Positions 27,593 through 33,859 of a DNA stretch of 33,859 nt are shown piece by piece. The position numbers were made by a program, and so were the translations under genes. Within the stretch, counting starts at the first letter, position 1, and every line of letters starts with the position of its first letter. The notes beneath the pieces were generated by a model. That model ran no database searches and had not been told where the DNA came from. It saw only the letters and a program-made list of their open reading frames with translations. This DNA is from Pseudomonas sp. A-1 (lineage in GTDB: Bacteria; Pseudomonadota; Gammaproteobacteria; Pseudomonadales; Pseudomonadaceae): assembly GCF_004801855.1 (NCBI RefSeq), contig NZ_SSTC01000019.1, positions 1 through 33,859 on the forward strand, written 5' to 3'.

Positions 27593-27698
27593 GGTGGCTC
27601 CGTGGCGGCAAGGGATGGCCAAGCCTAGGCGATTGCGCGCGGCGCGGCGAGGGGCTGGAGCCCATGTGCGCGTTCTGTGCGCGGCTTGGCGAAAATCC

Positions 27699-27729
27699 CA
27701 CATGTGAGACATGGCGATCACACATGTGA
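27699..27729. promoter_or_regulatory. Paired CACATGTGA sites, putative operator
   Basis: CACATGTGA occurs at 27699-27707 and again at 27721-27729, 22 bp apart, about two helical turns; each contains the palindrome CACATGTG. A partial copy (CATGTG) is at 27663-27668. The pair lies 18 bases before the first gene of the PspA operon and inside the 154-bp region shared with the divergent CoA-transferase gene. The spacing on one face of the helix suggests cooperative binding of a dimeric regulator. The N-terminal segment of the adjacent gene is a candidate binder. No clear -35/-10 pair was found. Confidence 0.5.
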
Positions 27730-27746
27730 TGCTCTAGCCTCAGGGC

Positions 27747-28379
27747 ATGGACAGCAAATCGTCGGCCTACTACCAGCGTCTGTACCGCCAGCGCCTGCGC
27801 GAGCAGGGGCTGGTGAAGAAGGAAGTGTGGATACGGCCCGAGCATGCGGCGCAGCTCGCGGCCATGGAACGCAAACTGCGCCAGCCCGCCAGCGGGCTGG
27901 ACTCAACGGAGGAGGGGGGTATGCACATGCCCAGGCTATGGACCACCGGCGAGCTGTACGAGGCGCTGGCGAACGTGGAACTGCTGCGCGCCGGACGGGC
28001 CAGCATCGAGTTGCTGCAGGGGGCCGACCCCAGCCTGCACCTGACCCTGCACGACTACGGCGACCTGCCGCTGTTCGCTGCGGTGGTCGGCGAGCAGATC
28101 CTGGTCGAGGCGCTGCTCTGGCCGCAGGCCGACGTGCGCGATCCGGCCGCCTTCAACGAGGAAGTGCTGCGCACCCACAAGCTGTTCCCGCTCTCCAGCA
28201 TAGCCCTGGAGACCCTGGCCGACGGCCGCTCCTGCTACCTGATGTTCGGCGCCCTCAGCGCCTCCGCCAGCCTGGCCGACGTGGTCTGCGAGATCGAGAC
28301 CCTGGCCGACAACGTCATCAGGGCCACCGAGGCCTACGAGGACTTCCTGCTTCCTGCCGTCGAGGAGAGCCGCGCATGA
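27747..28379 (+). CDS. yjfI: YjfI-type protein (DUF2170) with N-terminal DNA-binding-like segment
   Basis: 210 residues in two parts. Residues 1-45 are basic and resemble ribbon-helix-helix-type N-termini: AYYQRLYRQRLREQGL, a strand KKEVWIRPE, then AAQLAAMERKLR. Residues about 62-200 match YjfI/DUF2170, which comparative work has related to CesT/Tir-type secretion chaperones (LHLTLHDYGDLPLFAAVVGEQILVEA). Upstream of the ATG only AGGG abutting the start is seen, whereas a strong site and ATG occur at codon 59 (27921), so a short 152-residue form equivalent to E. coli YjfI may also be made. It overlaps pspA by ATGA. Likely roles, inferred: autoregulator and PspA partner. The repeats at 27699-27729 lie just upstream. 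Confidence 0.8.
   Translation: MDSKSSAYYQRLYRQRLREQGLVKKEVWIRPEHAAQLAAMERKLRQPASGLDSTEEGGMHMPRLWTTGELYEALANVELLRAGRASIELLQGADPSLHLTLHDYGDLPLFAAVVGEQILVEALLWPQADVRDPAAFNEEVLRTHKLFPLSSIALETLADGRSCYLMFGALSASASLADVVCEIETLADNVIRATEAYEDFLLPAVEESRA
27908..27923 (+). promoter_or_regulatory. yjfI: Strong internal ribosome binding site within yjfI
   Basis: GGAGGAGG (27908-27915) followed five bases later by an in-frame ATG (27921-27923, codon 59 of the long form). It falls exactly in the linker between the basic N-terminal segment and the DUF2170 domain. It is much better than the site before the long-form ATG. Confidence 0.55.
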
Positions 28380-29077
28380 ACGTGTGGAGCAAGCTGCTGA
28401 CCGCCCTGCGCGGCGGCGCCAACGAGGCGGGCGAGGCGCTGGTGGACAGCCAGGCGCTGCGCATCCTCGACCAGGAAATCCGCGACGCCGACCAGGAGCT
28501 GCGCCAGTCGCGCGAGGCGCTGGCCGAGATCATGGCCAGGCAGAAGCTGGCCAGCGAGCGGGTGAGCAAGGCCGAGGCCAAGGTCGCCGAGTACGAGCAG
28601 TACGCGCTCAAGGCGCTGGCCGCCGACAACGAGACGCTGGCCACCGAGGTGGCGGAGAAGATCGCCACCCTGGAAGCCGAGCTGGCGAGCGATCGCGAGC
28701 AGGCCGCGGGTTTCGCCGCCAGCGTCACGCGCCTGCGCCAGGCGGTCAGCCAGGCCGAGGGGCACATCAGGCGGCTCAAGCAGCAGGTCGACACGGTCAA
28801 GGCCACCGAGAGCGTGCAGCGCGCGCAGCTGGCGGTGGCCCGTCGCCACGGCGGCTCGCAGGCCAAGCTGCACACCGCGGTGGAATCGCTGGAGCGCATC
28901 AAGCAGCGCCAGGCCGAGCGCGCCGCCCGCCTGGAGGCCGAGGCCGAGCTGGCCGCCGAGCAGCCGGAGGCCAGCCTGGAAGGCAAGCTGCGCGCCGCCG
29001 GCATCGTCCCCGACAACGGCAGCGCCGCCAGCGTGCTGGCGCGGCTGAAGGACAGGGCGGCGCACGACGCCACCTGA
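28376..29077 (+). CDS. pspA: PspA/IM30-family membrane-stress protein (YjfJ type)
   Basis: 233 residues, predicted almost wholly alpha-helical coiled coil. It starts MNVWSKLLTALRGGANEAGEALVDSQALRILDQEIRDADQEL, as in PspA/YjfJ, with the amphipathic N-terminal helix used for membrane binding, then long heptad-rich helices (about 45-200). PspA/Vipp1 proteins are ESCRT-III relatives that polymerise on damaged inner membrane. The pspF/pspBC partners are absent; instead yjfI, yqiJ and flotillin surround it, which marks the YjfJ branch. The ATG at 28376 overlaps the yjfI stop and has GAGGAG at 28362-28367. A 72-base gap follows. Confidence 0.9.
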   Translation: MNVWSKLLTALRGGANEAGEALVDSQALRILDQEIRDADQELRQSREALAEIMARQKLASERVSKAEAKVAEYEQYALKALAADNETLATEVAEKIATLEAELASDREQAAGFAASVTRLRQAVSQAEGHIRRLKQQVDTVKATESVQRAQLAVARRHGGSQAKLHTAVESLERIKQRQAERAARLEAEAELAAEQPEASLEGKLRAAGIVPDNGSAASVLARLKDRAAHDAT

Positions 29078-29108
29078 CGCTCACGCCCAGCCTCGCCGCG
29101 CGCAGTTC

Positions 29109-29129
29109 CACGCTGCGTGCGGCTCCTAC
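29109..29129 (-). repeat. Possible REP remnant
   Basis: On the minus strand GTAG (29129-29126) is followed by GAGCCG and the small palindrome CACGCAGCGTG (29119-29109). The opening GTAGGAGC is the same as in the 48-bp REP doublet downstream. Short and imperfect, so only a tentative call. Confidence 0.25.
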
Positions 29130-29149
29130 GCTTTCACGGACGGAACACG

Positions 29150-29788
29150 ATGGAACTCTTCCTGCACAGCGCCCTGGCGTTCCCCACCGTGCTGTTCAGC
29201 TTCCTGCTTTGCTTGGCGGTGCTCTACTGGCTGGTCGCCGCCCTCGGCATCCTCGAGGTCGACGTGCTCGACGGCGACTTCGGCCCGGACGGCGAGGGCC
29301 TCGAGCTGGAAGGTCTGGCCGGCCTGCTGCTCAAGCTGGGCCTGGGCGGCGTGCCGGTGACCCTGGTGCTGACCCTGCTGGTGTTCTTCGCCTGGTTCGC
29401 CAGCTACTTCATCGAGCTGCTGCTGTTGCGCCACCTGCCGCTGGGCGTGCTGCGCTATCCGCTGGGCGTGGCGGTGGCAGCACTGGCGCTGCTGCCGGCG
29501 GTGCCGCTGACCGGCGTGCTGTGCCGGCCGCTGCGCCGGCTGTTCCGCAAGGTCGAGGCGCCCAGCGCGCGGACCCTGCTCGGTCAGGTGGCGCGGGTGC
29601 GCAGCGGCACGGTCACCGCGCAATTCGGCGAGGCCGACCTGGACGACCAGGGCGCCGGACTGATCCTGCGCATCCGCGCCGACGCGGCGCAGGGCTTCAA
29701 GCGCGGCGACCGCGTGGTGCTGCTGCAGTACCTGGAGGGCGAGCACGCCTACCGGGTGGTCAGCGAAGACGAATTCAAGGGCCTCTGA
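29150..29788 (+). CDS. yqiJ: YqiJ-like membrane protein with NfeD-type OB-fold (DUF1449)
   Basis: 212 residues. Three membrane helices are predicted: about 10-33 (AFPTVLFSFLLCLAVLYWLV), 69-93 (PVTLVLTLLVFFAWFASYFI) and 103-124 (YPLGVAVAALALLPAVPLT). An acidic loop (VDVLDGDFGPDGEGLE) lies between the first two. The C-terminal domain (about 140-205) is a small beta barrel like NfeD/OB-fold proteins (GQVARVRSGTVTAQF, FKRGDRVVLLQY). NfeD-type proteins partner SPFH/flotillin proteins, and here the flotillin gene follows after 27 bases. The start at 29150 was chosen because the membrane helix follows directly; an upstream methionine at 29117 lies in the REP-like gap. Confidence 0.85.
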   Translation: MELFLHSALAFPTVLFSFLLCLAVLYWLVAALGILEVDVLDGDFGPDGEGLELEGLAGLLLKLGLGGVPVTLVLTLLVFFAWFASYFIELLLLRHLPLGVLRYPLGVAVAALALLPAVPLTGVLCRPLRRLFRKVEAPSARTLLGQVARVRSGTVTAQFGEADLDDQGAGLILRIRADAAQGFKRGDRVVLLQYLEGEHAYRVVSEDEFKGL

Positions 29789-29815
29789 GCCGCCCCTCAA
29801 GGAGATGAAAACAAA

Positions 29816-31861
29816 ATGATCGAGATTCTGATGCCCTTCCTGATCGGGGTCGGCGTGGTCTTCCTGCTGGTCTTCGGCTTCTTCGTGCTGTTCAAGGCCT
29901 TCTACATCAAGGTGCCGCAGGGCACCGCGCTGATCGTCAACGACATGTCCTCGCAGCCCAAGGTGCACTTCACCGGCGCGCTGGTCTACCCGGTGATCTA
30001 CAAGAAGGAGTTCATGCAGATTTCCCTGATCACCCTGGAGATCGACCGCCGCGGCAAGGACGGCCTGATCTGCCAGGACAACCTGCGCGCCGACATCACC
30101 GTGGCCTTCTACCTGCGGGTCAACGAGACCCAGCAGGACGTGCTCAAGGTGGCCAAGGCCATCGGCGCCGAGCGCGCCTCCGACCGCGCGGCGGTCAACG
30201 ACCTGTTCAACGCCAAGTTCTCCGAGGCGCTGAAGACCGTCGGCAAGCGCTTCGACTTCGTCCAGCTGTTCGAGGAGCGGCAGAACTTCCGCGACCGCAT
30301 CGTCGAGGTGATCGGCAACGACCTCAACGGCTACGTGCTGGAGGACGTGGCCATCGACTACCTGGAGCAGACGCCGAAGAGTTCGCTGGACCCGACCAAC
30401 ATCCTCGACGCCCAGGGCATCCGCAAGATCACCGAGCTGACCGCGGCGCAGAACGTGATCACCAACGACCTGGAGCGCAACGAGGAGCTGGCGATCAAGA
30501 AGAAGAACGTCGAGACCCGCGAGGCGACCCTGGCGCTGGAGCGCCAGCAGGCCGACGCCGAGGCGCGCCAGCAGCGCGAGATCGCCACCATCCGCGCCCG
30601 CGAGCAGGCCGAGATCCTCAAGGTGCAGGAGGAGGAGCGGCTCAAGGCCGAGCAGGCGCGCATCCAGACCCAGCAGGAGCTGGATATCCGCGCCGAGAAC
30701 CACCAGCGCGAAGTCGAGGTGGCGCAGCAGAACCGCCAGCGCGCGGTGGTGATCGAGGAGGAGAAGGTCACCCGTGCCCGCGAGCTGGAGATCGTCGCCC
30801 GCGAGCGCGAGGTCGAGCTGCAGCGCATCGAGAAGGAGAAGGCGCTGGAGGAGCAGCGCAAGAACATCGCCAACGTGATCCGCGAGCGGGTGGCGGTGGA
30901 GAAGACCGTGGCCCAGGAGGAGGAGCGCATCAAGGAGGTGCGTCAGGTGTCCGAGGCCGAGCGGCTCAAGCAGGTCGCCGTGCTCAACGCCCAGGCCGAG
31001 GCCGAGCAGGAGCTGGTGCGCCAGGTCAAGCAGGCCGAGGCCGACGAGACCCGCGCCAAGCACAAGGCGGTGGAAGTCAACGTCATGGCCCAGGCCGAAC
31101 TGGAGGCGGCGGCCAAGCAGGCCGAGGCCAAGCGCAAGCTCGCCGAGGGCATCGAGGCCGAGCGCGCCGCGCCGGGCCTGGCCGATGCGCGGGTGCGTGA
31201 GGTGACCGCGGCAGCCATGGAGAAGGAAGGACTGGCCGACGCGCGGGTGAAGGCCGAGCAACTGATCGCCGAGGCCCGTGGCGAGCAGGAGAAGGGCCTG
31301 GCCCAGGCGCGGATCATCGAGGCGCAGGCGGCGGCCAAGGAGAAGGACGGCCTGGCCGAGGCCAGGGTGCTGGAGGAGAGGCTCGGCGCCCAGGCGCGCG
31401 GCGAGGAGCAACTGGGCAGCGCCAAGGCCAAGGCCACCAAGGACCTCGGCCTGGCCGAGGCCGAGGTGCTGCTGCAGCGCTTCAACGCCGAGGCCGAGGG
31501 CCTGGGCAAGAAGTTCGGCGCGCTCGACGAGCTCAGCGACAGCGCCCGCCAGCACGAGGAATTCCGCATGCAGCTGGAGAAGGACTTCGAGACCTCGATG
31601 GCCGGCATCGCCGCCAACCAGGAGATCGCCAGGGAGCAGGCCGAGGTGCTGTCCGCCGCGCTGTCCAAGGCCAAGATCGAGATCGTCGGCGGCGAGGGCG
31701 ACTTCTTCAACTCCTTCGCCCGCTCGCTGTCGGTGGGCAAGGCCATCGAGGGGGTGGTCGGCAAGAGCCCGGTGGTGCAGGAAGTGCTGGGGCGGCTGAT
31801 GGCCGGCAAGGGCGCCGAGGCCAGGAACGTGCCGGCGTCGGTCGACAAGACCCCGGCCTGA
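29816..31861 (+). CDS. yqiK: Flotillin-like SPFH protein (YqiK type)
   Basis: 681 residues, longer than E. coli YqiK (553). One N-terminal membrane helix (about 5-26, LMPFLIGVGVVFLLVFGFFV) leads into an SPFH/PHB domain (about 30-230: VPQGTALIVND, then EIDRRGKDGLICQDNLRADI and FNAKFSEALKTVGKRFDF). From about 225 to 590 it is a charged coiled coil with EAR/EAQ motifs, as in flotillins. Residues 454-533 contain a 40-residue unit twice. A Gly-rich C-terminal segment ends the protein (SFARSLSVGKAIEGVVGKSPVVQEVLGRLM). AAGGAG (29799-29804) precedes the ATG. Flotillins oligomerise into membrane microdomain scaffolds; with YqiJ and PspA this suggests a membrane-integrity machine (inference). Confidence 0.93.
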   Translation: MIEILMPFLIGVGVVFLLVFGFFVLFKAFYIKVPQGTALIVNDMSSQPKVHFTGALVYPVIYKKEFMQISLITLEIDRRGKDGLICQDNLRADITVAFYLRVNETQQDVLKVAKAIGAERASDRAAVNDLFNAKFSEALKTVGKRFDFVQLFEERQNFRDRIVEVIGNDLNGYVLEDVAIDYLEQTPKSSLDPTNILDAQGIRKITELTAAQNVITNDLERNEELAIKKKNVETREATLALERQQADAEARQQREIATIRAREQAEILKVQEEERLKAEQARIQTQQELDIRAENHQREVEVAQQNRQRAVVIEEEKVTRARELEIVAREREVELQRIEKEKALEEQRKNIANVIRERVAVEKTVAQEEERIKEVRQVSEAERLKQVAVLNAQAEAEQELVRQVKQAEADETRAKHKAVEVNVMAQAELEAAAKQAEAKRKLAEGIEAERAAPGLADARVREVTAAAMEKEGLADARVKAEQLIAEARGEQEKGLAQARIIEAQAAAKEKDGLAEARVLEERLGAQARGEEQLGSAKAKATKDLGLAEAEVLLQRFNAEAEGLGKKFGALDELSDSARQHEEFRMQLEKDFETSMAGIAANQEIAREQAEVLSAALSKAKIEIVGGEGDFFNSFARSLSVGKAIEGVVGKSPVVQEVLGRLMAGKGAEARNVPASVDKTPA

Positions 31862-31898
31862 CTGAGCCGGCTCCGCTCCGGGGCCGCATGCCGCCTGT

Positions 31899-31946
31899 GT
31901 AGGAGCGAATTCATTCGCGACCGGTCGCGAATGAATTCGCTCCTAC
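31899..31946. repeat. Perfect 48-bp REP doublet (REPIN-like) palindrome
   Basis: Two inverted 22-base copies (31899-31920 and 31925-31946) around CCGG make a perfect 48-bp palindrome. Each copy starts with GTAG from the outside (GTAGGAGCGAATTCATTCGC), the tetranucleotide recognised by REP-associated tyrosine transposases. It sits 37 bases after the flotillin stop and 42 bases before the next start, within an apparent operon. As RNA it would form a very stable hairpin that could protect the upstream mRNA or reduce transcription of the ATPase gene. Confidence 0.8.
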
Positions 31947-31988
31947 GGAAAGCCCCCACTTCTCGCGCAATCTTCAGGAAGCACAACG

Positions 31989-33859
31989 ATGTCGGATGCC
32001 CAGGACGCCAGCCGCGAACAGGACATGGTGGATCAGGCTGTCGCCGAGGGCGGCGCCTACGAGGTGCTGCAGCGCCGGCTGGCCGAGCAGGGCCAGCGCC
32101 TGCGCCAGGGCGTCGACGCCCTCAACGCGCAGCGCCTGGCCGAGTTCGGCAGCAGCGAGATGGCGGTGCTTGGCCGGGTGCGCATCCGCACCGAGAACAA
32201 CTGCATCGCCCGCGACATCGTCCAGGTCGGCGACTGCCTGCTGTTCGGCTACAACGTGTTCCTCGGCCTCAAGCAGGAAACCCGCGTCGAGGACGTGTTC
32301 TCCCTGTATCGCCTGAGTCACGCCGAGGAGGGCTATGAGGCCGAGCCGCAGCCGCTGGAGGGCAGCTTTCTCGGTCAGGCCAGCTTCGTGCAGGACTTCC
32401 GCGAGCTGTACAGCTACTACAAGAACACCCGCCTGCTGCAGCTGGTGGTGCGCGACGGCAAGCTGCTGGCCAGCTTCCAGATCGGCGAGCGACTCACCGA
32501 CATCCGCGTGTTCCGCTGGTCGATCGCCGTCGACGGCGGCGAGGTGCGCTACCTCGACAACCGCGGCGAGCGCGACATCGCCCTGCCGGCGCCCTACGAC
32601 TTCGCCTGGCAGAAGACCACGCGCGAGATGGTGGTCAACGGCCGTCATCCGCACGTCAACATCCTCGACACGGTGTTCGTCGAGACCATCGGCGGCGACC
32701 TGACCGTCAAGGTCGAGAACAACACCGAGGACGGCCTGGGCATCTACCGCGAGGCGGTGGTGGACAAGACCCAGTCGCTGGACGACGCACAGATCGAGTT
32801 CGCCCGCCTCGGCAGCCTGATCCTGCTCAAGGTGCTGCCGTACCGCGAGGAGCAGTGGCGCTACCTGGTGTTCAACGGCCTGACCCGCCAGGTCGAGCGC
32901 ATCGACGCCATCGGCCAGGCCTGCGTGCAGCTGCCCGAGGACCACGGCATCGTCTTTCCCGGCGGCTACTACCTGCAGAACGGCGAGTCGCGGACCTTCG
33001 AGCAGCCGATGGCCGGCATGCGCTTCAAGCGCGCGGTGCGCTCGCCCAACGGCGAGGACGTGCTGTACATCTTCTACCAGCCGGAGGAGGGCCGCTCGGC
33101 GCTGTTCACCTACAACCTGATCGAACGCCAGCTGCACAGCCCGATCTTCGGCCACGGCTACGCGCGCCTGGAGGACGGGCGCATGGTGATCTTCGCCGCC
33201 GAGGGCGCCGAGCCGACGCGCATCCACCCCATGCAGATCTGGCAGACGCCGTTCGCCAGCGCCGAGTTCGCCGCCCGCCAGCCGCCGCGCAGCGGCTTCC
33301 TCGGCCGCATCGGCAACGCCGAGCTGGTGCGCGGGGTGTCCGAGCTGCGCAACCTGTGCCGCGAGATCGACGCCCGGTCGGTGTCGGTGCAGCGCTACGG
33401 CCAGCTGTGCCAGAGCGTGCGCCGCCTGTTCGACGCCTACCACTGGCTGGGCGCCGCCGAACTCGGCGAGCTGGCGCCGCTGCTGCGCGAGATCGCCGCC
33501 ACCGCCGAGCGGGTGCTCGACGAGTTCGAGAAGGTCGAGAGCATCCGCCAGCAGTCGGTGCGCGCCATGGCCGAGGCCGAGACCCGCCAGCAGGCGCTGC
33601 TCGCCGGCCTGCACGTCGACAGCTGGGACGCGGTGGCGGCCTTCGTCGAGGCGCTCAACGCGCTGACCGCCCAGCGCGGCCTGCTGCTGACCATCCGCGA
33701 CTACCGCTACATCGACGTGGCGCGCATCGACGCCATGGAGGCGGCGCTGCTCGAGGCGCAGGCGCGGGTCGCTGCGGCCACCGCGCGCTTCCTCGCCGGC
33801 GAGCGGGCGCTGGCGCCCTACGCCGAGCGCCTGGCCGAGCTGGACGGCGCGGCGCAGCA
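31989..33859 (+). CDS. DUF3686 'DNA repair ATPase'-type large protein, N-terminal part
   Basis: 623 complete codons are visible and the frame stays open to the window edge, so this is the N-terminal part of a large protein (relatives exceed 1500 residues with a C-terminal AAA-type ATPase). Residues about 1-50 are helical (YEVLQRRLAEQGQRLRQGVDALNAQRL). About 55-440 form a beta-rich, possibly propeller-like region (EFGSSEMAVLGRVRIRTENN, NCIARDIVQVGDCLLFGYNVF, VVNGRHPHVNILDTVFVETIGGD). From about 450 on it is helical coiled coil (ELRNLCREIDARSVSVQRYGQ). No Walker A is seen in the visible part. AGGA (31976-31979) precedes the ATG. The DUF3686 name rests on remembered family features and operon context; the repair role is only an annotation tradition. 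Confidence 0.7.
   Translation, partial: MSDAQDASREQDMVDQAVAEGGAYEVLQRRLAEQGQRLRQGVDALNAQRLAEFGSSEMAVLGRVRIRTENNCIARDIVQVGDCLLFGYNVFLGLKQETRVEDVFSLYRLSHAEEGYEAEPQPLEGSFLGQASFVQDFRELYSYYKNTRLLQLVVRDGKLLASFQIGERLTDIRVFRWSIAVDGGEVRYLDNRGERDIALPAPYDFAWQKTTREMVVNGRHPHVNILDTVFVETIGGDLTVKVENNTEDGLGIYREAVVDKTQSLDDAQIEFARLGSLILLKVLPYREEQWRYLVFNGLTRQVERIDAIGQACVQLPEDHGIVFPGGYYLQNGESRTFEQPMAGMRFKRAVRSPNGEDVLYIFYQPEEGRSALFTYNLIERQLHSPIFGHGYARLEDGRMVIFAAEGAEPTRIHPMQIWQTPFASAEFAARQPPRSGFLGRIGNAELVRGVSELRNLCREIDARSVSVQRYGQLCQSVRRLFDAYHWLGAAELGELAPLLREIAATAERVLDEFEKVESIRQQSVRAMAEAETRQQALLAGLHVDSWDAVAAFVEALNALTAQRGLLLTIRDYRYIDVARIDAMEAALLEAQARVAAATARFLAGERALAPYAERLAELDGAAQ

Follow-up and report, generated by a model that had tools for sequence, protein, structure and literature searches.

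The window analysed here, a 33,859-nucleotide stretch of Pseudomonas sp. A-1 (contig NZ_SSTC01000019.1), ends in an operon whose five same-strand genes, encoding BacA/YjfI, PspA, YqiJ, a flotillin and a DUF3686 ATPase, take up positions 27747-33859. Domain and blastp matches confirmed the five consecutive plus-strand genes read by the initial annotation. The first of them probably encodes an autorepressor that reads PspA in place of PspF, with putative DNA binding at a pair of palindromes just upstream of its start codon. The features are as follows.

27699-27706, no strand assigned: putative operator O1, a CACATGTG palindrome starting 48 bp 5' of the bacA ATG; the pair with O2 occurs once in the 4.4 Mb genome.
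27721-27728, no strand assigned: putative operator O2, a CACATGTG palindrome starting 26 bp 5' of the bacA ATG and 22 bp from O1.
27747-28379, + strand: BacA/YjfI (DUF2170; PF09938, 168 bits; NCBIfam NF050185 'biofilm formation regulator BacA', 327.8 bits against a cut-off of 300).
27756-27911, + strand: conserved N-terminal domain of BacA (KSSAYYQRLYRQRLREQGLVKKEVWI...), putative DNA-binding, MazE-like or plasmid-repressor-like (UrfF, 1.7e-4; PF11455; hhalign, 86%).
28376-29074, + strand: PspA (PspA/IM30; PF04012, 168 bits), with an ATGA overlap with bacA.
29150-29788, + strand: YqiJ-type membrane protein (SPFH partner), start codon uncertain (E. coli YqiJ: blastp 5e-5, profile 1e-11).
29816-31861, + strand: YqiK-type flotillin (SPFH, long coiled coil; Band_7, 32.8 bits; E. 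coli YqiK, blastp 3e-40).
31989-33859 (contig end), + strand: DUF3686 AAA+ ATPase, N-terminal 623 aa of ~1742, comprising a propeller-like region and the start of a helical part (PF12458, 692 bits; AlphaFold2 models).

The pspA start falls within the final codons of bacA, and PF04012 matches no protein of the genome other than the operon PspA. Scanned at full length, YqiJ and the flotillin had no Pfam match at E<=0.001 and just noise at E<=10; the Band_7 match comes from the N-terminal 200 aa of the flotillin scanned alone. The contig stops inside the ATPase gene, so no AAA domain is visible in the window. By the NF050185 equivalog model the first gene is bacA, and a PspA-like gene lies directly 3' of it; these are two marks of the Pseudomonas bac operon, and the YqiJ and YqiK matches occupy the bacC and bacD positions. 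We take P. aeruginosa BacC to be a YqiJ, the large BacD a flotillin and bacE the gene of a DUF3686 protein. The operon is a bac-type phage shock protein (PSP) operon, a known kind of bacterial membrane-stress operon, and the association is not new: as the annotation had stated, it was noted in comparative genomics of PspA, where Ravi et al. (2024; PMC11237479) describe CesT/Tir(DUF2170)-PspA operons with Band-7/flotillin, YqiJ and AAA+ genes, the same gene set, name a novel AAA+ ATPase that combines a coiled coil with a beta-propeller, and report shorter flotillin-YqiJ(-ATPase) operons. The annotation's view that the function is essentially untested does not hold, since P. aeruginosa bac operon mutants have biofilm, swarming and rhamnolipid phenotypes, the crystal structure of BacA is published (PMC2587700, PMC10948618) and PspA (PA3731) goes up on osmotic shock in that species (PMC2587700). 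The P. aeruginosa bacA-F operon, which the present one resembles in its BacA ortholog and PspA-like BacB, comprises six co-transcribed genes (PMC2587700, PMC10948618). The gene after the ATPase in a genome of the same species as the window encodes a GGDEF protein.

We surveyed 89 DUF3686 loci, consisting of nine plus the best 80 of 196 relatives; L015/L028 and L146/L175 share an organism or gene and L145 is the window itself, so that counts are not independent events. A conserved stretch of ~50 residues with the consensus KSSAxYQRxYRQRLREQGLVKKEVWILPE...LxxxERxLRQ precedes DUF2170 in 64 of the 67 YjfI proteins of these loci. Proteins with this N-domain are ~203 to 225 residues long, apart from one of 242 whose start is misplaced. 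Among 29 diverse members, 21 matched the NCBIfam model of plasmid repression protein F (UrfF) at E<=0.1, with a best E of 1.1e-4; the window BacA scored 21.6 bits, under the model cut-off of 100. At the same threshold the Pfam MazE-like antitoxin family (PF11455) matched 12 of the 29, only L111 exceeding the curated cut-off (25.1 vs 22 bits). Aligned by hhalign with three MazE-like proteins, the N-domain reached 86.4%, while the control alignments of PspA and YqiJ gave 0.6% and 0.1%. No solved structure was convincingly related to it (best E 0.78), and no standalone N-domain protein rose above noise near 11 DUF2170 genes lacking the domain (best E 3.2). With caution, the matches suggest that the BacA N-domain is MazE-like or ribbon-helix-helix (RHH)-like and a putative DNA-binding domain. 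A tblastn search of plasmids with the N-domain returned only three Pseudomonas 'YjfI family' genes; the large Pseudomonas plasmids NZ_CP047261.1, NZ_CP127046.1 and NC_009444.1 carry YjfI-family genes with a related N-domain.

The BacA of P. aeruginosa, given as 16 kDa (PMC2587700) and crystallised as 139 residues (PMC10948618), is too short for DUF2170 plus the N-domain. Either the domain is absent there or the start has been placed too late; we favour the latter because the NCBI BacA model, 206 positions long, covers the N-domain and matches it alone with 83.7 bits. This suggests that the published BacA work may have used a form without the DNA-binding end. The terms ribbon, DNA-binding and palindrom- are absent from the main text of PMC10948618, and the terms operator, MoxR and autoregul- from that of PMC11237479. 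The passages of Ravi et al. (PMC11237479) on these operons mention neither a DNA-binding domain in YjfI nor an operator, both of which we propose here; in another group of DUF2170-PspA operons, that paper mentions an RHH factor encoded separately by the last gene. No report of DNA binding by BacA was found in the open-access literature searched.

Two copies of YACATGTR, mostly within the palindrome TYACATGTRA, lie upstream of bacA, and their distribution follows that of the N-domain. The pair was present in 62 of the 64 loci with the domain, the exceptions being L026, with one site only, and L096, whose two sites are separated by 92 bp. It was found in none of the three loci whose BacA is without the domain and in none of the 22 without bacA, six of them cut by a contig end. 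Start-to-start spacing was 22 bp in 44 regions, 13 in 10, 23 in six and 24 in two, with the window counted and L042 excluded; a recount over 200 bp upstream gave the pair in 62 of 68 regions, likewise missing that of L042, for which a wrong start codon had been chosen. At its locus, Pseudomonas flexibilis (L059) has retained PspA, YqiJ, flotillin and ATPase but carries no bacA and no pair.

The pair is also confined to bacA within whole genomes. With gaps of 8-20 allowed, its one occurrence in the 4.4 Mb genome is at the operon, and a reversed-pattern control gave 0. Across 397 genomes sampled from the phylum, among which 10 have DUF3686 and 55 DUF2170, the pair with a gap of 14-16 was present in four, with one site each and every site directly 5' of bacA; these four are the sample's four Pseudomonadaceae having the DUF3686 operon. 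Seven of the 397 had one chance site each for the control pattern. A further operon genome with the N-domain (G171) carries the 13-bp version of the pair.

Operator letters change with the protein as well. A family-wide search recovered BacA relatives in 88 of 298 genomes. Our subtype survey covered 90 loci (one G449 gene counted twice, the window once), two of them without the N-domain and 88 sorted by the letters of the recognition strand. The KKEVW proteins (n=49) came with 47 YACATGTR pairs and two single sites, and all KRELW (n=4) and KRELY (n=4) proteins with a pair. The KREFW group (n=8) had three pairs, two single sites and three upstream regions with none, and KHESW, KHEAW and KHEAY, represented by one protein each, had a single YACATGTR. 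The KHETW proteins (n=20, including L214) had no YACATGTR and carried CACGCGTG instead, as 18 pairs and two single sites. Dinucleotide shuffles of the same upstream regions produced neither kind of pair in 200 rounds. With G127 and G376 added, KHETW genomes total 22. A search of the 298 genomes for TCACGCGTGA-N34-38-TCACGCGTGA found it in 20, one site each and all next to a bacA of the KHETW subtype; G606 and G653, the KHETW genomes outside those 20, have one site each, the other 276 genomes have no such pair, and the control pattern was found nowhere. Each of the two BacA subtypes has its own palindrome pair, so the letters of the operator go with the subtype of the protein. The operator core may have switched from CATG to CGCG along with the change of the recognition strand from KKEVW/KRE.W to KHETW. 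Cases picked out in an exploratory inspection by eye agree with this: five alphaproteobacterial BacAs (VKxExW) showed inverted repeats, some imperfect, just 5' of the start, and the L133 BacA (HKVEVYVPE) showed two TTCGCGAA sites. Three genomes of one genus (G451, G499 and G440; L199, L207 and L208) carry two BacA genes each; the second copies are of the KREFW kind, and neither YACATGTR nor CACGCGTG lies 160 bp or less from the starts chosen for them.

These patterns bear on whether another transcription factor binds the palindromes while the BacA N-domain serves some other role, such as PspA or membrane binding. A different palindrome, GACAT-N2-3-ATGTC, lies upstream of the DUF2170 gene in 11 of 35 loci without the domain (L017, L018, L020, L121, L128, L130, L132, L135, L137, L143 and L144), where some other protein presumably binds it; in six of the 11 it is paired, 15 or 33-36 bp apart. 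The separate RHH factor of Ravi et al. (PMC11237479) belongs to one operon group of this sort. Yet domain and operator are present or absent together (62/64 vs 0/25), there is one site per genome and always at bacA, the letters change with BacA subtype, and P. flexibilis lacks both bacA and pair at its locus. A separate factor is accordingly an improbable explanation, and covariation in sequence strongly suggests instead that the N-terminal domain of BacA would itself bind the two promoter-overlapping palindromes. Upstream of E. coli K-12 yjfI (L235:6400-6640), none of the three palindromes described here was present. Heat-adapted E. coli carries a one-base deletion 80 bp 5' of yjfI reported to be the likely cause of strong yjfIJKL expression (PMC12492005).

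The palindromes also bear on the promoter. When 54 distinct regions with 22-bp spacing were aligned, O1 was followed by TTGa.t, then 17 bp holding O2, then TAgtCT. A promoter spacer is a usual site for a repressor. O2 thus appears to be placed in the spacer of a sigma70-type promoter consensus of the relatives, as a tendency only: a loose sigma70-like pattern extends across O2 in 56 of the 102 regions spaced at 22-24 bp, and a sigma70 promoter scan of the window found none. For P. aeruginosa bacA, control by sigma54 has been proposed instead, and its authors report a putative RpoN site (PMC2587700, PMC10948618); by extension, sigma54 with an enhancer-binding activator would drive the present operon. 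Against this, the strict sigma54 consensus was found in 0 of 156 upstream regions on the sense strand, P. aeruginosa not among them, and the window has no match within three mismatches between 27593 and 27746, while the TTGa.t-N17-TAgtCT consensus runs across O2 in the 54 regions. We rejected sigma54 control on these searches and regard it as very unlikely here.

The annotation had stated that no classic psp regulator is present. None of PspB, PspC or PspF is among the five genes or in the neighbouring CoA-transferase gene upstream of the operon, the rest of the genome not having been searched for them; to that extent the statement stands, but the first gene itself looks like a regulator with an operator beside it. 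When bacA is disrupted in P. aeruginosa, levels of the other Bac proteins in biofilm rise 6.1 to 13.5-fold (PMC10948618), which fits an autorepressor. Interaction of BacA with BacB has been predicted with an AlphaFold2 probability of 0.981 (PMC13092808), and a strong interaction is mentioned as unpublished (PMC10948618). The DUF2170 domain shares its fold and dimer type with the ExsC/CesT type III chaperones, which have regulatory roles (PMC10948618); unlike those chaperones, the present BacA also has a putative DNA-binding domain in the same polypeptide.

PspA family proteins polymerise on damaged membrane. In the mechanism that we propose, the CesT-like DUF2170 domain of BacA would bind PspA, as predicted by others, and this binding would control DNA binding by the other end of the protein. 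A stressed membrane would draw PspA away, BacA would lose its co-repressor or be sequestered, and the operon would come on; we favour either a co-repressor role of PspA or the sequestering of BacA by PspA bound to the membrane. E. coli pspF-pspABC is alike in having PspA, and in PspA touching the regulator, a contact that would hold for BacA too; it differs in that its regulator PspF is an activator of the AAA+ class that PspA inhibits, whereas BacA would be a repressor, and in having PspB, PspC and PspF. A probable regulator with its operator, both built into the operon, is new as far as open-access literature searches show. They would offer a concrete regulator, operator and subtype code for PSP systems without PspF, LiaRS or ClgR, and would link PspA status to transcription via a single protein.

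We then considered how tightly the five genes hold together, which the annotation had made a condition of its reading. Detected genes were on one strand in all 89 loci, and the order YjfI-PspA-YqiJ-flotillin-ATPase was present in 66. The shorter sets were YqiJ-flotillin-ATPase (17), PspA-YqiJ-flotillin-ATPase (2), flotillin-ATPase (2), YjfI-YqiJ-flotillin-ATPase (1) and ATPase alone (1). Flotillin adjoins the ATPase in 88 of 89 loci, the sole miss being L093 at a contig end; the three loci where YqiJ went undetected (L039, L090 and L093) also lie at contig ends; and PspA lies within the operon in 68. In L020 a divergent coiled-coil PspA-like gene, missed by the profile, occupies the PspA place. 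Co-inheritance is thus borne out for YqiJ, flotillin and ATPase but only in part for BacA and PspA. The full and short operons were already reported by Ravi et al. (PMC11237479), and our survey is a confirmation with counts.

At further DUF2170 loci, a same-strand PspA gene starts <=300 nt after the DUF2170 gene in 69 of 70; flotillin was unseen in those 70 stretches, most of which span just ~2 kb. The Pseudomonadaceae genomes G127 and G376 have BacA-PspA and no DUF3686 match. From these two results, the BacA regulator goes with PspA and not with the ATPase. Beside the ATPase, flotillin and YqiJ are constant and PspA is variable; therefore the ATPase belongs to a flotillin-YqiJ module, and BacA-PspA is a separable one. 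We consider it likely that the operon joins two such modules, a BacA-PspA sensor/effector and an ATP-driven membrane-domain machine of YqiJ, flotillin and ATPase.

The annotation had suggested that the ATPase takes PspA polymers apart as Vps4 does ESCRT-III. PspA is established as ESCRT-III-like, the ATPase has an AAA+ domain, and PspA, where the operon shows none, was elsewhere in 14 of 15 genomes (16 were examined and L020 then set aside; L075 is cut just upstream of yqiJ). Nevertheless, it is flotillin and YqiJ rather than PspA that constantly neighbour the ATPase. In a 79-row tree of the ATPase, operon PspA presence needs six changes, at least four of them forced by well-supported branches, some long branches being unreliable; the underlying alignment had 84 rows after exclusion of five loci with an ATPase frame <=1600 aa, and the tree further excluded L039, L075, L090, L093 and L098, whose upstream side is cut by a contig end. 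In Wohlfahrtiimonas larvae the ATPase-flotillin-YqiJ set is retained, and no PspA was detected in its genome.

The fold of the ATPase points in the same direction. A complete 1742-aa protein from the same species (genome G449, L175 5901-11129), identical to the window ATPase at 605 of 623 positions of its N-terminal part, bears out the ATPase-type label given by the annotation: it has an AAA+ domain with PPGYGKTT (Walker A) at 1296, VMLYVDDIQ (Walker B) at 1358 and MSGNPYTESGE at 1408. A Pfam scan of the full protein (E<=0.05) matched DUF3686, DUF7902, AAA-type families and, weakly, TBCC_N, with no MIT and no protease domain. PF00004 exceeds its cut-off, but the match spans only the surroundings of the P-loop. 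Both an AAA_5 domain and structural nearness to MoxR/dynein/midasin-like AAA+ proteins were found, the listed neighbours of the modelled domain being MoxR-type (CbbQ, NorQ), dynein, midasin and Clp. Vps4 is not among the 50 neighbour rows listed, which by itself proves nothing. The P-loop region of the AlphaFold2 model is of low confidence, and the structure-prediction alignments used 31/38 diverse rows. From the models, the DUF3686 protein appears to join a propeller-like N-terminus and a helical stretch to a MoxR/NorQ-dynein-midasin-like AAA+ motor. Vps4-like remodelling of PspA is weakened by these findings and is, in our judgement, unlikely; most likely the DUF3686 protein would assemble, remodel or extract clients of the flotillin/YqiJ scaffold. 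HflKC-FtsH is an SPFH cage with an AAA+ partner, and the present operon likewise combines an SPFH scaffold with an AAA+ motor. Unlike HflKC-FtsH, it has a MoxR/dynein-like motor, a propeller-like N-terminus and no protease domain in the Pfam scan. The question of what the ATPase acts on would shift from PspA to flotillin and YqiJ.

Taken as a whole, a new wiring of PSP systems is, on balance, a somewhat favoured reading: a one-component regulator with a DNA-binding and a PspA-binding chaperone domain would read the PspA pool, and, in the same operon, an ATPase of the MoxR/dynein kind would serve the flotillin-YqiJ scaffold. That the ATPase is a DNA-repair protein merely located here has only the Pfam description of PF12458 in its favour. 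The ATPase adjoins flotillin almost without exception, its RuvB-like matches are limited to the P-loop, and the term DUF3686 was not found in the open-access literature searched. The annotation's doubt about the 'DNA repair' label is shared here, and we consider this explanation extremely unlikely.

Three minor observations concern the ATPase gene, its surroundings and the operon proteins. A defence-system role was considered and rejected: PADLOC had no match to four of the operon proteins, and for the fifth, PspA, just a weak one to JetC (15.6 bits). In L019 (G007) an in-frame TGA splits the DUF3686 gene into two frames, and the gene is possibly decaying. Downstream of the complete ATPase in G449 (L175 11226-16239), the GGDEF protein is accompanied by a Zorya-type ZorA/ZorB pair (PADLOC E 1.3e-266 and 4.1e-111).

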